Origin: Halobacteroides halobius DSM 5150
GTDB lineage: Bacteria > Bacillota > Halanaerobiia > Halobacteroidales > Halobacteroidaceae
DNA: 64,000 nucleotides
Reading direction: 5' to 3'
Assembly: GCF_000328625.1 (NCBI RefSeq)
Contig: NC_019978.1
Location: 682,001-746,000, forward strand
Part shown: piece after piece, positions 44,599 to 56,052 of the stretch
How positions within the stretch are numbered: the stretch's first letter is position 1
Layout of the letters: each line of letters starts with the position of its first letter
Made by a program: the position numbers and the translations under genes
The notes under the pieces: model-generated
What the model was told of the DNA's origin: nothing
Databases searched by the model: none
What the model saw: only the letters and a program-made list of their open reading frames with translations

Positions 44599-46008
44599 TT
44601 AGCTAACTATAAATGAGGCAACCCCAAATAAAATGGCTGTTATTCCAGCAGCTGTAAGGGCAGGTATTAATTTATATCTGGTGTACTCAATAATTGGTAT
44701 ATTTAAGATAGTACAAAGTGTATTAGCATTATCACTTAAAGGAGAAGCAAAGGCACCAAAAGTACCACTAGAAAATACGGCACCAATAGTAAGTAAAATA
44801 TTTGTGCCTGAGTTATGGGCCAAAGTAACTCCTAGAGGCATTAATAAGCCCCAGGTTCCCCAAGATGAACCAATAAAATAGGAGATTAATGCTCCTAATA
44901 AGAAGATTACCGGAGCAACAAAATAAGTTGGGATCAAATCACCGATATTAGCTATAATGTATTTAGAAAATCCTAAATCTCCTGATACTTCAGTTAATCC
45001 CCAGATAAGTGTTAGAAGAATAATAACTGACATCAAATTATTACCTCCTTCAATAAAAGAAGTAATAATTTTTTTAAGAGAGAAATTTTGTAGTTTAAAA
45101 AAGATTATAGATAACAATAAAGCAATAACTAATCCTTGTAACATGGCACCTAAAACATCACTAGCAATAAAAGCCCCTAAAAAAGTAGGAGCTTTTTGGT
45201 ATCCATCCCACCAGGTTAAGAAAATAGTTAAAAATAAAGTAGTAATTAGTGGTAAGATAAGATTCCAAGGTTTAACTGGAGTTTCTTTTGTGTAAGCATG
45301 TTTACATTCTTGGAGACATTTCTCTTTGGGATCTTTATTTTGTTTTTCTGTTTTTTGTTTATTGTTATTTTCTTTAAAAAAGCTAAAATAAAGACCTACT
45401 AGAATTATTACAAAGGAGAAGAAATTAAAGGGAATACTCCTAATATAGATTGCATAAGGGTTTTGCTCTACTCCTATTTTTTGCAAAGGAAACTGGACAA
45501 CAGATACCATATAACCTACAAAGGCTGTAGCTATAGGTACTAAAGCAACTACAGGACTACTACTAGCCCCGATTGCAAAAGCAAGTCTTTTTGAAGATAA
45601 GTTTAACTCTTTTTGTAAAGATTTAATAATCGGAGCAACAGTTATAATTCGTAAGTTAGGAGCACTAAAAGTTCCTAAAATTGAAAGCCAAATAATTGCA
45701 AAGGCACTTTTCTTTGTTTTAATCTTGTTACTAATTAAATGGACAAAACCTTTAATGCCTCCCGTTAATTTAATTATATTGATTAAGCCTGCAAATAAAT
45801 AAAGAAAGATAATAACTCTGATATTATTACTTTTAGTAAGGTTATTAATACTATAGTATAATAATTTTTTAATGCCCCCTAAAGGAGTTGGTTCAATGAG
45901 ATAACTTCCAGTAAGTAACCCTAAAAATAAGCCAGGGATTACTTGTTTAGTTAAGATAGAAATAGGAATAACAATTAAAAAAGGTAATAAGGCTCTCCAG
46001 GATTCCAT
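44599..46008 (-). CDS. Na+/H+ antiporter NhaC family protein
   Basis: Polytopic membrane protein of 469 residues (about ten or eleven segments) with the family features VIPGLFLGLLTGSYLIEPTPLGG, GTFSAPNLRIITVAPIIKSL, FIGSSWGTWGLLMPLG and FASPLSDNANTLCTI. Likely exports Na+ for protons, useful in salt. A charged loop (KENNNKQKTEKQNKD) is in the middle. ATG at 46008 follows AAGGAGG. A Spo0E-like small gene lies 23 bases upstream on the same strand. Confidence 0.85.
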   Translation of the reverse strand: MESWRALLPFLIVIPISILTKQVIPGLFLGLLTGSYLIEPTPLGGIKKLLYYSINNLTKSNNIRVIIFLYLFAGLINIIKLTGGIKGFVHLISNKIKTKKSAFAIIWLSILGTFSAPNLRIITVAPIIKSLQKELNLSSKRLAFAIGASSSPVVALVPIATAFVGYMVSVVQFPLQKIGVEQNPYAIYIRSIPFNFFSFVIILVGLYFSFFKENNNKQKTEKQNKDPKEKCLQECKHAYTKETPVKPWNLILPLITTLFLTIFLTWWDGYQKAPTFLGAFIASDVLGAMLQGLVIALLLSIIFFKLQNFSLKKIITSFIEGGNNLMSVIILLTLIWGLTEVSGDLGFSKYIIANIGDLIPTYFVAPVIFLLGALISYFIGSSWGTWGLLMPLGVTLAHNSGTNILLTIGAVFSSGTFGAFASPLSDNANTLCTILNIPIIEYTRYKLIPALTAAGITAILFGVASFIVS

Positions 46009-50814: not shown

Positions 50815-50843
50815 TTTAAAATCTAATTATAAAGTGGTATAAT
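50815..50843 (+). promoter_or_regulatory. Promoter of the PfkB-like/CBS/antiporter operon
   Basis: TATAAT (50838-50843) preceded by TGG (extended -10); weak -35 TTTAAA at 50815-50820. Confidence 0.55.
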
Positions 50844-50879: not shown

Positions 50880-51827
50880 ATGATTACAACAGTAACTTTA
50901 AACCCTGCTATTGACAGGGAGTATTTTGTACCGGAGAATAAACCAAAAGAGCATCAGTATATTTATACTGATAAAGATATTAATGTTACTCCAGGTGGTA
51001 AAGGGGTTTTAAGTAGTATTAATCTGAAACACCTTGGTCACTCTGATGTGCAAAATATTGGTTTTGTAGGAGGAAGACAAGGTCTTTTCTTTGAGAAGAT
51101 GATTCAAGAACATAAAATTACAACTAATTATGTTTATACGAAAAATGAGATTAGAAATAATATTTTTGTGATTGGAAAAGATCCTGTTACTTACACTCAT
51201 TATAATGATTACACTTATCGAGTTGAACCACGTGAGGTTGAAGAATTAATTAAGCGTTTTAAAAGGGGAATTACTGATAGCGATTTTATTATGATTTCAG
51301 GTTCAATCCCTGAAGGAGTGAATTTTAGTATCTATCAACGATTAATTGAAATTTGTCATGATTTAGATAAAGAAGTTTATCTGCATGCTAGTGGAGAAGC
51401 TTTAAATCGTGCTTTAGAAGCAAAACCTAAAGTGGTTGTACCTTATTTTAAGCATACTAATAAAATATTAGATAAGCCAGTCTCTGATTTTGAAGACTAT
51501 ATTTGGGCTGGTAAAAAATTATTAGAAGGAGGGGCGCAGTATGTAATGTTGCCTTATCATTGTGATCGGTTATTATTTGATGATACAGGCGTGTACTCTT
51601 TATCACCTAAAAATTTCTGTTTAAGAAACTGGTTAGGGGCAGGAGAAGCATATAATGCTGCTTTTTTTGATTATGTAAATCAACATGGATTTGATTTTAT
51701 TGAAGCTAATAAGTATGCTGGGGCAGCAGCCTTAGATATAGCTGAAAGAAAAAGTGTTTTTCTTGAGAATAAAGAAGAAATTGAAGAACATTTAGATCAA
51801 ATTGAAGTTGAGAAATTGGAGGTGTAA
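50880..51827 (+). CDS. PfkB family carbohydrate kinase-like protein with GAGE motif
   Basis: Ribokinase/PfkB fold protein of 315 residues, closest in outline to 1-phosphofructokinase/tagatose-6-phosphate kinases: TTVTLNPAIDREYFVPE at the N-terminus and PGGKGVLSSINLKHLG. The catalytic signature, normally GAGD, reads LGAGEAYNAAFF, so the base is Glu 256, and GGKG is followed by VLSS in place of INVS. Activity is therefore doubtful. It is five bases before a CBS-domain gene and two antiporter genes, not sugar genes, which points to a sensor role (inference). Confidence 0.75.
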   Translation: MITTVTLNPAIDREYFVPENKPKEHQYIYTDKDINVTPGGKGVLSSINLKHLGHSDVQNIGFVGGRQGLFFEKMIQEHKITTNYVYTKNEIRNNIFVIGKDPVTYTHYNDYTYRVEPREVEELIKRFKRGITDSDFIMISGSIPEGVNFSIYQRLIEICHDLDKEVYLHASGEALNRALEAKPKVVVPYFKHTNKILDKPVSDFEDYIWAGKKLLEGGAQYVMLPYHCDRLLFDDTGVYSLSPKNFCLRNWLGAGEAYNAAFFDYVNQHGFDFIEANKYAGAAALDIAERKSVFLENKEEIEEHLDQIEVEKLEV

Positions 51828-51831
51828 GTTA

Positions 51832-52290
51832 ATGAGTATAGTTAAGAAGTATATGATGCGAACTCTAAATTCAGTTTGTGCTAGTGATAAGTTAGAAGAT
51901 GTAATTGAAGTGATGCATAGAACTGAAATGTCTGTTTTGCCTGTGGTTAGTTATGAAAATGAATTTTTGGGTACAATTTATGGGAAAAATATCCTAAGAA
52001 ATATTATTCCAGAAGAATATGGATTTTTAGAGAGTCATCGCTTATTATATGAAGTCAATCAGGCAGCAGAAAACCTTGATGAAATTAAGGATAAAAAGGT
52101 AAAAGAATATATGTCAACAAATACAGTGCCAATTAAGGAAATGTCTAAGATGGATAATTTAGCTGATATTATGCTCCATAATGATGAGTCCTATTTATTT
52201 GTAATCAATGAAGATAATAAACTAAGAGGTTATATTTCTCGGGCTGATTTGCTTTGTTATTTATTAGATGTAGGAGAGGATAGAAGATGA
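51832..52290 (+). CDS. CBS-domain pair protein
   Basis: A 152-residue protein made of two CBS domains (about 1-60, MMRTLNSVCASDKLEDVIEVMHRTEMSVLPVV; and about 88-148, KVKEYMSTNTVPIKEMSKMDNLAD). CBS pairs commonly bind adenosine nucleotides and regulate transporters or enzymes. ATG at 51832 follows GGAGGTGTAAGTTA. Its TGA overlaps the antiporter ATG (ATGA), so they are translationally coupled, which favours a direct regulatory link. Confidence 0.85.
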   Translation: MSIVKKYMMRTLNSVCASDKLEDVIEVMHRTEMSVLPVVSYENEFLGTIYGKNILRNIIPEEYGFLESHRLLYEVNQAAENLDEIKDKKVKEYMSTNTVPIKEMSKMDNLADIMLHNDESYLFVINEDNKLRGYISRADLLCYLLDVGEDRR

Positions 52291-53591
52291 ATTTAGAAGC
52301 AGTAAATACACTACAAGAATTACAACACTGGTTATTAACTAATCAATTAAGTAGTAAATCATTATATATAATTGGATTTTTTGCTGTCTCTGCTTTACTG
52401 ATTGTATTAGCAACTAAAAAATTAAAAGTACCGATTGTTGTGGGATATGTTTTTGTGGGGATACTTTTTAGTGGTAGTGTGGTTAAGTATTTTCCGTTTT
52501 TATCAAATCTTCAGACAGAATGGTATACGTTAATAATAGAGAATTTCTCTTATGTGGCTGATGTAGCTTTAGCATTTATTGCTTTTACTATAGGTAGTGA
52601 ATTATCAATTAAAATTTTAAAGAGTTTAGGTAAGAAGATTTTATTTATTGTTCTGTTAGAGTCTTTTGGAGCTTTTACATTAGTAACTTTAGGTTTATTG
52701 GCTTTAGGAAAACCATTTTATTTGGCTTTAATTTTAGGAGCTATTGCATCTGCTACTGCACCTGCTGCTACAGTAATGGTGTTACAAGAGTATAATGCTG
52801 AAGGTAGCTTAACTTCTACTTTATTAGCGGTAGTAGGAATTGATGATGCGGTGGCGTTGACTATTTTTAGTTTTGCTGAACCTATTTCTTTAATCCGAGC
52901 TCAAGGAACAGGAAGCCTATCATTTACTAATGCTTTTTTACATCCTTTGTTGGAGGTGGTAGGCTCGATTGTCTGTGGTTTAGCAATCGGTTATCTTTCT
53001 GTTAAGTTAATGGTTAATTTTGAAGATAAGACGAAAAAAGTATTGACTTTAACAGCTACAGTATTAGGAGCTTCTTCTCTTGCAGTTTTATTTGAATTAT
53101 CTCCTTTAATTATTAATATGGCAGTAGGATTTGCATACCGTAACTTTGTTAAAAAGAATTTGGGAATTGCAGAAGATTTAGAGACTTTAACTATTCCTAT
53201 TTATGCTTTCTTTTTTATGTTAGCAGGAACTAAGATTAGAATCACTGCTGTTACTTCAACAACCTTTTTAATTACCTCTTTAGTTTATACACTAACAAGG
53301 GCTACTGGGAAGATAGGTGGTGCTTCTTTGGGAGCTCGATTAGGTCAAGCTGAAGAAAAGGTAAAAAAATATATAGGATTAGGTTTATTATCTCAAATTG
53401 GAGTTGCTGTTGCTTTAGCTTATACAGTACAACGAGATTTTGCTGCAATGCCTAAAGTAGGTCTATTAGTCTTTAATATCTTGTTATTTACAACTGCAAT
53501 CACAGAAGTGGTTGGCCCGTTAGCTGTTAAGTATGCTATTACTAAAGCTGGAGAAGCTAAAAGTGGTGAACTCAGTAGAGATAGAGGATAA
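52287..53591 (+). CDS. CPA-type cation/proton antiporter, first paralogue
   Basis: Polytopic Na+/H+ exchanger-domain protein of 434 residues (about 12 segments). It has an N-terminal cytoplasmic helix, VPIVVGYVFVGILF, SATAPAATVMVLQEYNAEG, and the double-Asp signature VVGIDDAVALTIF that marks the ion site. Highly similar to the next gene along its whole length. Cation (Na+ or K+) cannot be told. Start ATG overlaps the CBS stop. Confidence 0.87.
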   Translation: MNLEAVNTLQELQHWLLTNQLSSKSLYIIGFFAVSALLIVLATKKLKVPIVVGYVFVGILFSGSVVKYFPFLSNLQTEWYTLIIENFSYVADVALAFIAFTIGSELSIKILKSLGKKILFIVLLESFGAFTLVTLGLLALGKPFYLALILGAIASATAPAATVMVLQEYNAEGSLTSTLLAVVGIDDAVALTIFSFAEPISLIRAQGTGSLSFTNAFLHPLLEVVGSIVCGLAIGYLSVKLMVNFEDKTKKVLTLTATVLGASSLAVLFELSPLIINMAVGFAYRNFVKKNLGIAEDLETLTIPIYAFFFMLAGTKIRITAVTSTTFLITSLVYTLTRATGKIGGASLGARLGQAEEKVKKYIGLGLLSQIGVAVALAYTVQRDFAAMPKVGLLVFNILLFTTAITEVVGPLAVKYAITKAGEAKSGELSRDRG

Positions 53592-53673
53592 ATAAGTTTA
53601 TAACTTTGTCCCGCTTTAGAAAGAGCATAATTAGTAGTTAGCGATTTAGAACTTTAAAGGTGGTTAGATAAAG

Positions 53674-54987
53674 ATGAAAGCAGCAAAAGAATTGAATTTT
53701 GTGGAAAGAATATATGAGATTGAAGAATGGCTGCTAATTAATCAGCTAGGAAACAAAGTGATTTATATTATAGGAGGGCTGTTGTTTGCAGCCTTATTTA
53801 TTGTTTTAATGGCTAAGAAATATAAAGTTCCAATTGTAGTAGGGTATGTTTTTTTAGGGATCTTATTAAGTGTTGATTTAGTAGAAAAATTACCTTTTTT
53901 ATCAGTAGGACAGAAGGCTTGGTATGCTTTTGTGATTGGTAGTCTGGATTATATTCCTCAATTGGCGTTAGCATTTATTGCTTTTACAATTGGTAGTGAA
54001 TTATCAATTAAAATATTTAAGAATTTAGGTAAAAATATTGTCTATATTGTGTTATTAGAGGCTTTTGGTTCTTTTATCTTAGTTACTTTAACACTTTATA
54101 CTATAGGAAAACCTTTATATTTAGCTTTGTTACTAGGGGCTATTGCGTCTGCTACTGCTCCAGCGGCTACAGTAATGGTTTTACAAGAGTATAATGCTAA
54201 AGGATTATTAACGTCTATGATTTTAGCGATTGTAGGAATTGATGATGCGGTAGCTTTGATTATTTTTAGTCTAGTGGAGCCTTTAGCTTTGATCTTATAT
54301 TCTGGGACAGGTGATTTAGCTTTAACTAATATTTTAGTGGTGCCCTTAGTTGAGATAATAGGTTCAATAGTTATAGGATTAATAATTGGTTATATTTCTC
54401 AACGATTTATGAATGGATTAGAAGATAAGACAAAGATGATTTTAACTTTAGGGACAACAGTAGTAGGTAGTTCAGCGTTAGCTATCTTAGGTCATTTATC
54501 GCCTCTAATTACTAATATGGCAGTAGGGTTTGCTTACCGTAATTTTGCCAAAAGAAATCTAGGGATAGCGGAGTATTTAGATACGTTAACTGTTCCTTTA
54601 TATGCTATGTTCTTTATTTTGGCTGGTACAGAAATTGAATTTTCTAGTTTAGGTTCTAGTAGTTTTTTAATAATTGCCTTAACTTATACATTAGCTAGAA
54701 TTGTTGGTAAGATAGGAGGAGCTTCTCTAGGAGCTTGGCTAGGCAATGCTCCATCCAAGATTAAAAAATATGTTGGATTAGGATTATTACCTCAAAGTGG
54801 AGTGGCCATTGCTTTAGCTTATACAGTACAAAGTGATTTTGCTAATGCTCCACAAGTTGGCTTGTTAGTTTTTAACACTTTATTATTTACAGCGGCTTTA
54901 ACGGAAGTCTTTGGCCCGTTAGCTACTAAGTATGCTATTGTTCAAGCAGGAGAAGCACATGATTACGAACAAGCACAGGAAAAATAA
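53674..54987 (+). CDS. CPA-type cation/proton antiporter, second paralogue
   Basis: A 437-residue paralogue of the preceding antiporter with the same landmarks (SATAPAATVMVLQEYNAKG, IVGIDDAVALIIF, ITNMAVGFAYRNFAKRNLGIAE). The tandem pair may form a heterodimer or reflect recent duplication. ATG at 53674 follows AAAGGTGGTTAGATAAAG. A strong terminator ends the operon. Confidence 0.87.
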   Translation: MKAAKELNFVERIYEIEEWLLINQLGNKVIYIIGGLLFAALFIVLMAKKYKVPIVVGYVFLGILLSVDLVEKLPFLSVGQKAWYAFVIGSLDYIPQLALAFIAFTIGSELSIKIFKNLGKNIVYIVLLEAFGSFILVTLTLYTIGKPLYLALLLGAIASATAPAATVMVLQEYNAKGLLTSMILAIVGIDDAVALIIFSLVEPLALILYSGTGDLALTNILVVPLVEIIGSIVIGLIIGYISQRFMNGLEDKTKMILTLGTTVVGSSALAILGHLSPLITNMAVGFAYRNFAKRNLGIAEYLDTLTVPLYAMFFILAGTEIEFSSLGSSSFLIIALTYTLARIVGKIGGASLGAWLGNAPSKIKKYVGLGLLPQSGVAIALAYTVQSDFANAPQVGLLVFNTLLFTAALTEVFGPLATKYAIVQAGEAHDYEQAQEK

Positions 54988-54998
54988 AATTTATTTTT

Positions 54999-55029
54999 AG
55001 GACACGGGAAACCGTGTCCTTTATCTTTA
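54999..55029 (+). terminator. Terminator after the antiporter operon
   Basis: AGGACACGG (54999-55007) pairs with CCGTGTCCT (55012-55020), loop GAAA, followed by TTATCTTT. Confidence 0.9.
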
Positions 55030-55101: not shown

Positions 55102-56052
55102 ATGAAAAGAATATTTCTTATACTTGTATTACTAATAATTACTGTAACTGGATGTAGTAAGCCCAATTTTCAATTACAATTTACTGATTACCCTCAAATA
55201 ATGAATGAAAACGAATCTTTTACAGTGGAAGCAAAATTTCTAACTTTTAATGCTGAAGCTAAAGATATGAAAGTTATTTTATCTATCAGAGAATTAAGTA
55301 GTAAAAAAGAGTTATATAGAAAGAGTATTGAACTGTCTAATAAGAACCAACCTTTTTCTTTTACAGGAATTAATTTAGAAAAGGTTAGTGATAATATTTA
55401 TTTTGAATTAAAGTTAATTAAAGATGGGGTATTTACAGTCAAAACTAGTACTCGTTCTAATCCAACTTTAGTAGCTAACTTGCATACTAATATTATAACT
55501 ACCTATTTTGAAGATACTGATAGCGATGGAAATGCCTTATATGCTGCTTGGGGTAATAATTTAAAAGAGGAAAATGATTATTACTGTGCCTTGCCTTATA
55601 AACCTGGGTACGATGGTAGAGTCTATCAAAACTTTACAAAAGAATATGTGAAAGATCGTTGGGTTGAGGTTTATTATCCCAAGAATGAAAAGTATGTTTA
55701 TGTTCAATGGGAGGATGTTGGCCCGTGGAATGTCTATGATCCTGAGTATGTATTTAGTACTAATGATGTAAGACCATACGCTGAAAGAAAAAGAGAAGAT
55801 ACGGGCTGGAGTGGAGAAGTACGTAAAACTAATGGAGCTGGACTTGATATTTCGCCAGAAGCAATGAATTATTTAGGTGGTGATGGATATATCAAGGTTA
55901 ACTGGAGATTTGTATCTTGGGAAGAAGTACAGCAGAATTCCCGACAAGATGCACCATGGCTTAAGGATGTTAGTGGTAGTGAAATTAATACTCAAATATT
56001 TGATATGGATAATAAAAAGCAAAGAACTAATACTTTAGGAGAATTTAAATAA
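55102..56052 (+). CDS. Lipoprotein with C-terminal double-psi-barrel-like region
   Basis: A 316-residue secreted lipoprotein: lipobox IITVTGCS (Cys 18), an extracellular beta-rich N-terminal half (Ig-like by pattern, tentative), and a C-terminal region with YVYVQWEDVGPWN and GAGLDISPEAMNYLG...IKVNWRFV, which resembles RlpA/expansin-type double-psi beta barrels. Role unknown; wall binding possible. Followed closely by an esterase gene. Confidence 0.6.
   Translation: MKRIFLILVLLIITVTGCSKPNFQLQFTDYPQIMNENESFTVEAKFLTFNAEAKDMKVILSIRELSSKKELYRKSIELSNKNQPFSFTGINLEKVSDNIYFELKLIKDGVFTVKTSTRSNPTLVANLHTNIITTYFEDTDSDGNALYAAWGNNLKEENDYYCALPYKPGYDGRVYQNFTKEYVKDRWVEVYYPKNEKYVYVQWEDVGPWNVYDPEYVFSTNDVRPYAERKREDTGWSGEVRKTNGAGLDISPEAMNYLGGDGYIKVNWRFVSWEEVQQNSRQDAPWLKDVSGSEINTQIFDMDNKKQRTNTLGEFK

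Follow-up and report, generated by a model that had tools for sequence, protein, structure and literature searches.

Does a sugar-kinase-like protein encoded beside a CBS-pair protein and two cation/proton antiporters act as an enzyme, or does it belong to the control of ion exchange? This question is raised by a locus in the window, the whole stretch of 64,000 nucleotides that was analyzed here. The host genome (2.65 Mb) belongs to the class Halanaerobiia, in which Orenia, Halanaerobacter, Halonatronum, and Natroniella are named relatives. A first-pass annotation had proposed that a pseudo-kinase and a CBS protein set antiporter activity, and it doubted catalysis because of GAGE in place of GAGD and a changed GGKG neighborhood. 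In the present study, the linkage and the doubt about catalysis both stood, but GAGE did not survive as the reason for that doubt.

Organization of the operon

The ORF check placed the four genes where the first-pass annotation had put them. The genes and two flanking elements are as follows.

50815 to 50843, + strand: promoter-like site ahead of the operon, TTTAAA-17-TATAAT, the second hexamer being preceded by TG (consensus scan only)
50880 to 51827, + strand: FruK-derived PfkB-like protein, 315 aa (PF00294, 62 bits; ribokinase fold; residues counted over 32 orthologues)
51832 to 52290, + strand: stand-alone CBS-pair protein, 152 aa (PF00571, 66 bits; nucleotide-type model matches; 3' of pfkB in 32/32 copies)
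52287 to 53591, + strand: NapA-like cation/proton antiporter 1, 434 aa (PF00999, 111 bits; Asp-Asp and Lys)
53674 to 54987, + strand: NapA-like cation/proton antiporter 2, 437 aa (PF00999, 127 bits; NapA match, E 8e-9; D190-D191, K346)
54999 to 55020, + strand: terminator-like hairpin of 9 pairs, after the last gene (pattern scan)

All four proteins exceeded their cut-offs in a Pfam scan (PfkB, CBS, and Na_H_Exchanger twice). The CBS start lies 4 nt from the pfkB stop, the CBS stop overlaps the start of antiporter 1 as ATGA, and the paralogous antiporter 2 follows, which is the order that had been described. The pattern scan saw no terminator-like hairpins between the four genes, and the number of promoter-like sites that the consensus scan found in the region was close to chance. 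Upstream of the window's copy and at 19 relatives' loci, neither a c-di-AMP riboswitch nor any other known RNA scored above the gathering score; two sub-threshold, chance-type matches to known RNAs occurred in the window.

As had been claimed, no sugar genes adjoin the operon. Its upstream neighbors are arg biosynthesis genes, and a putative lipoprotein, a hydrolase, a NusG_II protein, and carAB-like genes lie downstream. The putative lipoprotein (55102-56052, +) is without a significant Pfam family, and one Orenia-type genome (L033) has a 43% identical relative in the same place. A different kind of antiporter, the NhaC type (Na+/H+; PF03553, 125 bits), is encoded at 44599-46008 (-), on the opposite strand beyond the arg genes, approximately 5 kb before the operon.

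Conservation of the gene order

A whole-genome search of all 59 Halanaerobiia genomes examined identified the PfkB-like orthologue in 29 of them, in 32 copies. The relatives' orthologues were 57-78% identical to the window's protein, and the next PfkB relatives reached 30% at most, leaving a wide gap. The CBS gene was located immediately 3' of the PfkB-like gene in all 32 copies and thus in 29/29 genomes, the conserved linkage for which the first-pass annotation had set a check. Among the 31 relatives' copies, the PfkB-CBS spacing was 2-5 nt in 29, and the ORFs overlapped in the other 2. One or two NapA-like antiporters came next in 30 of the 31; the sole copy without an antiporter (L055) stops at a contig edge, and the antiporter of one of the 30 (L041) is approximately 310 nt away. 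The CBS-antiporter spacing ranged between -37 and about 310 nt, and the PfkB-CBS spacing was far more constant, which suggests that the synthesis of these two proteins is coupled.

The PfkB-CBS-antiporter order spans at least five families. Only the window's own family shares the arg genes upstream and the hydrolase and NusG_II genes downstream, so the unit is retained amid changing neighbors. We concluded that the operon is real and that its linkage is far from chance.

The whole unit is present twice in three genomes (G016, G011, and G030). In G030, the duplicate is in tandem (L040:4925-10763) and its PfkB copies are almost identical; besides these two full units, G030 carries a third CBS-antiporter pair with no adjacent PfkB gene (C1:1877159). 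An independent search for the CBS orthologue, in which each genome offered between a handful and some twenty CBS candidates, returned the same 29 genomes and one more, G010. In G010, neither the PfkB gene nor the first CBS motif is present, and the C-terminal CBS motif remains beside an antiporter as a short ORF (L109:6268-6462, -) that overlaps the antiporter start. G028 is among the class members without the unit. We rejected the missing antiporter and CBS parts in G002 (L036, L114) as a real loss; they coincide with runs of N and are, therefore, assembly gaps rather than biology.

No PfkB-like orthologue was detected outside Halanaerobiia at E < 1e-45 among 299 genomes drawn from the phylum. 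A scan of genome contigs with a few peptide patterns returned Halanaerobiales-type records only, and plasmids held only FruK/LacC-type relatives (best identity approximately 30%).

Catalytic residues of the PfkB-like protein

GAGE is indeed present at residues 253-256 of the window's protein, but it is not general. At position 256, 23 of the 32 orthologues carry D and the other 9 carry E, and G255 is replaced by Ser in 12 (GAS[DE]-type). E256 is limited to one order, within which one Natroniella copy has D, and the tree shows 2 changes at this position. The suggested covariation of GAGE with the linkage to CBS and antiporter genes was not observed, D- and E-bearing copies being equally linked. 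Because GAGE is limited to a clade and does not follow the linkage, we rejected it as a mark of the system. The GGKG sequence itself is intact in the window's protein, and the change in its neighborhood is the loss of the Asn two residues later (GGKG-x-N).

A canonical set of 22 FruK/LacC/Pfk-2-type proteins (20 paralogues, mostly of the same class, plus E. coli Pfk-2 and FruK) provided 37 positions conserved in at least 90% of its members. Of these, 21 are kept in at least 90% of the 32 orthologues, and 14 are lost in all 32 in the alignment. The donor and metal residues K185, N187, E190, S224, G226, and G229 (Pfk-2 numbering) are lost in 32/32, as are R29, N43, G110, and D166. The ATP/Mg residues lost by the orthologues are kept in 20-22 of the 22 canonical relatives, and neither the K-x-N-x-x-E donor/Mg motif nor the S-x-G-x-x-G nucleotide loop is present in any of the 32 orthologues. 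What is kept lies mainly on the phosphate-acceptor side: D14, the GGKG loop, R90, S139, and G253. G253, the anion-hole glycine, and an acidic residue at 256 are each present in 32/32. For single residues, we presume the roles established by work on Pfk-2; the exception is N-x-x-E, the Mg motif (PMC10339645).

At most donor-site positions, the substitute is nearly invariant (Y 32/32, H 32/32, P 31/32, H 31/32, and R 29/32), and dN/dS values of about 0.03-0.13 indicate strong purifying selection on the orthologues. The donor site is, therefore, a rebuilt pocket and not the product of decay. The earlier doubt about catalysis is strengthened by these results, through donor/Mg residues lost in 32/32 rather than through GAGE. 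The protein is probably a FruK-derived, catalytically dead sensor of a phospho-ligand. The retention of D/E256 and G253 counts against a purely dead kinase because such a protein would not need these residues.

The PF00294 match exceeds the cut-off of 25.8 bits. TIGR03168 and TIGR03828 were matched at E about 1e-50, with scores below the curated cut-offs (176.5 vs 216.4 and 169.7 vs 292, respectively). The AlphaFold model has a ribokinase fold (mean pLDDT 84), and its closest structure is TM0828 (PDB 2ajr, Z 35.2), followed by FruK and LacC; the Z to 2abq was 31.0. TM0828 groups with the orthologues on a long branch of the tree (support 99/97). In the alignment, it keeps N43, K185, and S224; because part of the same donor set is lost, TM0828 may be an intermediate. 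T. maritima does not figure among the control genomes listed as having PF00999, and a link between TM0828 and such an antiporter is, therefore, not expected. The entry 2ajr is titled a possible 1-phosphofructokinase, and it is without the N-x-x-E residues and two donor-loop glycines; this annotation deserves a check. The window's genome also encodes two FruK-type paralogues (L147, L148) that are canonical and have every motif. Members of the PfkB-like clade that are annotated as 1-phosphofructokinase are probably misnamed.

The CBS protein and the antiporters

PF00571 matched the CBS protein in two stretches, and the protein's model matches solved CBS pairs. The second motif has an invariant core, LRG...R...L. 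The model is nearest to CBS pairs of which several were solved with AMP, ADP, ATP, or c-di-AMP, and this similarity would fit a putative sensor of adenine nucleotides. The curated CbpB model was matched with only 36 bits against a cut-off of 125, by which the protein is not CbpB. The genome carries two c-di-AMP synthase-type (DAC) genes and, thus, both kinds of ligand are likely available.

Antiporters 1 and 2 are paralogues (65% identical); the genome encodes three PF00999 proteins in all, these two included. In both, an Asp-Asp pair and the TM10 lysine align with those of NapA. Among CPA antiporters, the Asp-Asp and Lys signature marks electrogenic exchange, and we infer that the operon encodes electrogenic Na+ (or K+)/H+ exchangers. 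The pair is DD in 28, DN in 5, and GD in 3 of the 36 linked copies of the relatives, GD being found in Natroniella (L039, L042) and in L041. Most unlinked paralogues in Halanaerobiia have Asp-Glu, not Asp-Asp (L108, L115-L126, L143-L145).

Unlinked antiporters of the same group, without PfkB and CBS partners, occur in many genomes. More distant antiporters (34-38% identical) are encoded in several genomes that lack the unit, and a number of them adjoin a P-II-like gene. This short gene is located just upstream of the distant antiporter at L132:4613-4948, L134:4266-4607, L136:3004-3384, and L140:6230-6580; three of the four tested matched the P-II profile just under the cut-off. P-II-like proteins are another sensor-type family. 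These neighborhoods suggest that antiporters of this broad group tend to be accompanied by a soluble protein of the sensor type, of which PfkB plus CBS is the Halanaerobiia version.

Proposed function and alternative explanations

The present results suggest a conserved antiporter control unit of Halanaerobiia, in which ion exchange is controlled by metabolic state in a manner that has not been described. We propose that the PfkB-like protein as a phospho-ligand sensor and the CBS protein as an adenine-nucleotide sensor regulate the electrogenic antiporter post-translationally, a proposal that we regard as evenly balanced. The FruK-derived protein would have no ATP-dependent phosphorylation left and would bind a phosphorylated metabolite as a signal. 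The CBS protein would bind ATP, ADP, AMP, or c-di-AMP and pair with the FruK-derived protein, and the pair would raise or lower the activity of the Na+ (or K+)/H+ antiporter after translation. In these fermenting halophiles, ion exchange would thereby be tuned to glycolysis and energy status. An electrogenic Na+/H+ antiporter costs a fermenting halophile membrane potential, which makes adenylates and glycolytic signals reasonable inputs.

This control unit is supported by a gene order that is maintained (30/31 for the whole order, 31/31 for PfkB-CBS) while the flanks change, and by the presence of both orthologues, PfkB and CBS, in one set of 29 genomes along with duplications of the whole unit. 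The loss of the donor/Mg set with the acceptor side kept under low dN/dS, the nucleotide-type CBS model, the Asp-Asp/Lys signature, the presence of two of the three PF00999 proteins in the operon, and the P-II-like genes beside distant antiporters of related genomes also argue for it. The CBS-antiporter pair of G030 without an adjacent PfkB gene and the unlinked same-group antiporters elsewhere count against it, as does the fact that a conserved gene order can reflect shared transcription only.

Shared transcription is the basis of one alternative, in which the PfkB-CBS pair serves a separate metabolic or regulatory task and the antiporters are only co-transcribed with it because the same salt or pH condition calls for both. 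The tight spacing of PfkB-CBS relative to CBS-antiporter fits this explanation. However, an antiporter is next in 30/31 copies across at least five families, whole units were duplicated independently, and CBS sequences stay with an antiporter without PfkB in G030 and, as half a gene, in G010. We consider a separate task quite unlikely. The PfkB-like protein may instead still be an enzyme that uses an unusual phosphate donor, or a phosphatase or transferase, with D/E256 as the base; it would produce or remove a small phospho-signal read by the CBS protein or antiporter. The acidic residue at 256 and G253 in 32/32, the acceptor-side residues, and a replaced donor site that is conserved rather than decayed are in its favor. 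In contrast, an ordinary Mg-ATP site is unlikely with K185, N187, E190, S224, G226, and G229 all replaced, and the catalytic loop itself varies (Ser for G255, Glu for D256). Retained enzyme activity of this type appears unlikely.

Automatic annotation would name the protein an ordinary 1-phosphofructokinase, near the transporters by chance. The strong TIGR03168 and TIGR03828 matches and the FruK/LacC-like fold agree with this name, whereas the scores below the curated cut-offs, the donor/Mg motifs lost in every orthologue, the two canonical FruK-type paralogues in the genome, and a linkage that is universal and not incidental make it very improbable.

Returning to the control unit, the regulation of an antiporter by two soluble proteins is plausible and agrees with the present results. 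We tentatively speculate on a more specific form, a two-sensor switch in which the PfkB pseudokinase, with its rebuilt invariant pocket, and the CBS protein form a complex that directly gates the electrogenic Na+/H+ antiporter. As parts of this same tentative idea, the PfkB protein would read a glycolytic phospho-metabolite and the CBS protein an adenine nucleotide. If the proposed control unit is right, carbon and energy status would be coupled to the CPA ion exchangers of anaerobic halophiles by proteins without a known link to ion transport, and a bacterial example of a sugar kinase converted into a sensor would be at hand. The idea is directly testable because the partners are small soluble proteins encoded beside the transporter.

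Comparison with known systems

Among the papers searched, we found none joining PfkB or 1-phosphofructokinase with a CBS domain and an antiporter, and none on ribokinase/pfkB with pseudokinase. The PfkB-like protein shares its fold, D14, GGKG, R90, S139, and G253 with the FruK/LacC/Pfk-2 branch, including TM0828. Unlike FruK, LacC, and Pfk-2, it has N43, K185, N-x-x-E, S224, G226, and G229 replaced in 32/32.

In KhtSTU of Bacillus subtilis and CpeABC of Streptomyces, a CPA antiporter has a c-di-AMP-binding RCK_C subunit (PMC10117811). Similarly, a putative cytosolic ligand-binding subunit is encoded here in the same operon as a cation/proton antiporter of the same superfamily; however, a PfkB-like protein and a CBS pair would be the regulators. 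The Pfam scan did not find an RCK_C domain in the four operon proteins and, thus, the operon is not a KhtTU member.

In KefF-KefC and KefG-KefB, a soluble enzyme-fold protein is the ancillary subunit of an adjacent CPA2 antiporter; KefF belongs to the flavodoxin-fold oxidoreductases, and an RCK domain is part of KefC itself. The present operon likewise encodes an enzyme-fold soluble protein beside an antiporter, for which an ancillary role may be envisaged. In contrast to KefFC, this protein has a ribokinase fold and is accompanied by a separate CBS pair, and the Pfam and curated profiles gave no flavodoxin-fold oxidoreductase match in either soluble protein.

CBS-controlled transporters and c-di-AMP-binding CBS proteins include OpuA, MgtE, CorB/MpfA, and DarB/CbpB (PMC10710835). 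Nucleotide sensing by a CBS pair, predicted here, is common to these proteins, several of which control a transporter. In the present operon, the CBS pair is not fused to the transporter and is always paired with the FruK-derived protein.

Non-catalytic sugar-kinase-like regulators are represented in eukaryotes by yeast Gal3p and by the plant PfkB-type proteins FLN1/FLN2, the role of which is uncertain (PMC3409070). As in the present case, a sugar-kinase fold is used, or suspected, as a regulator and not as an enzyme. However, these eukaryotic proteins are related to transcription and involve no transporter, and the comparison drawn is one of description. If the two-sensor switch is true, we know of no earlier bacterial pseudokinase of the PfkB family for which control of a transporter has been shown.
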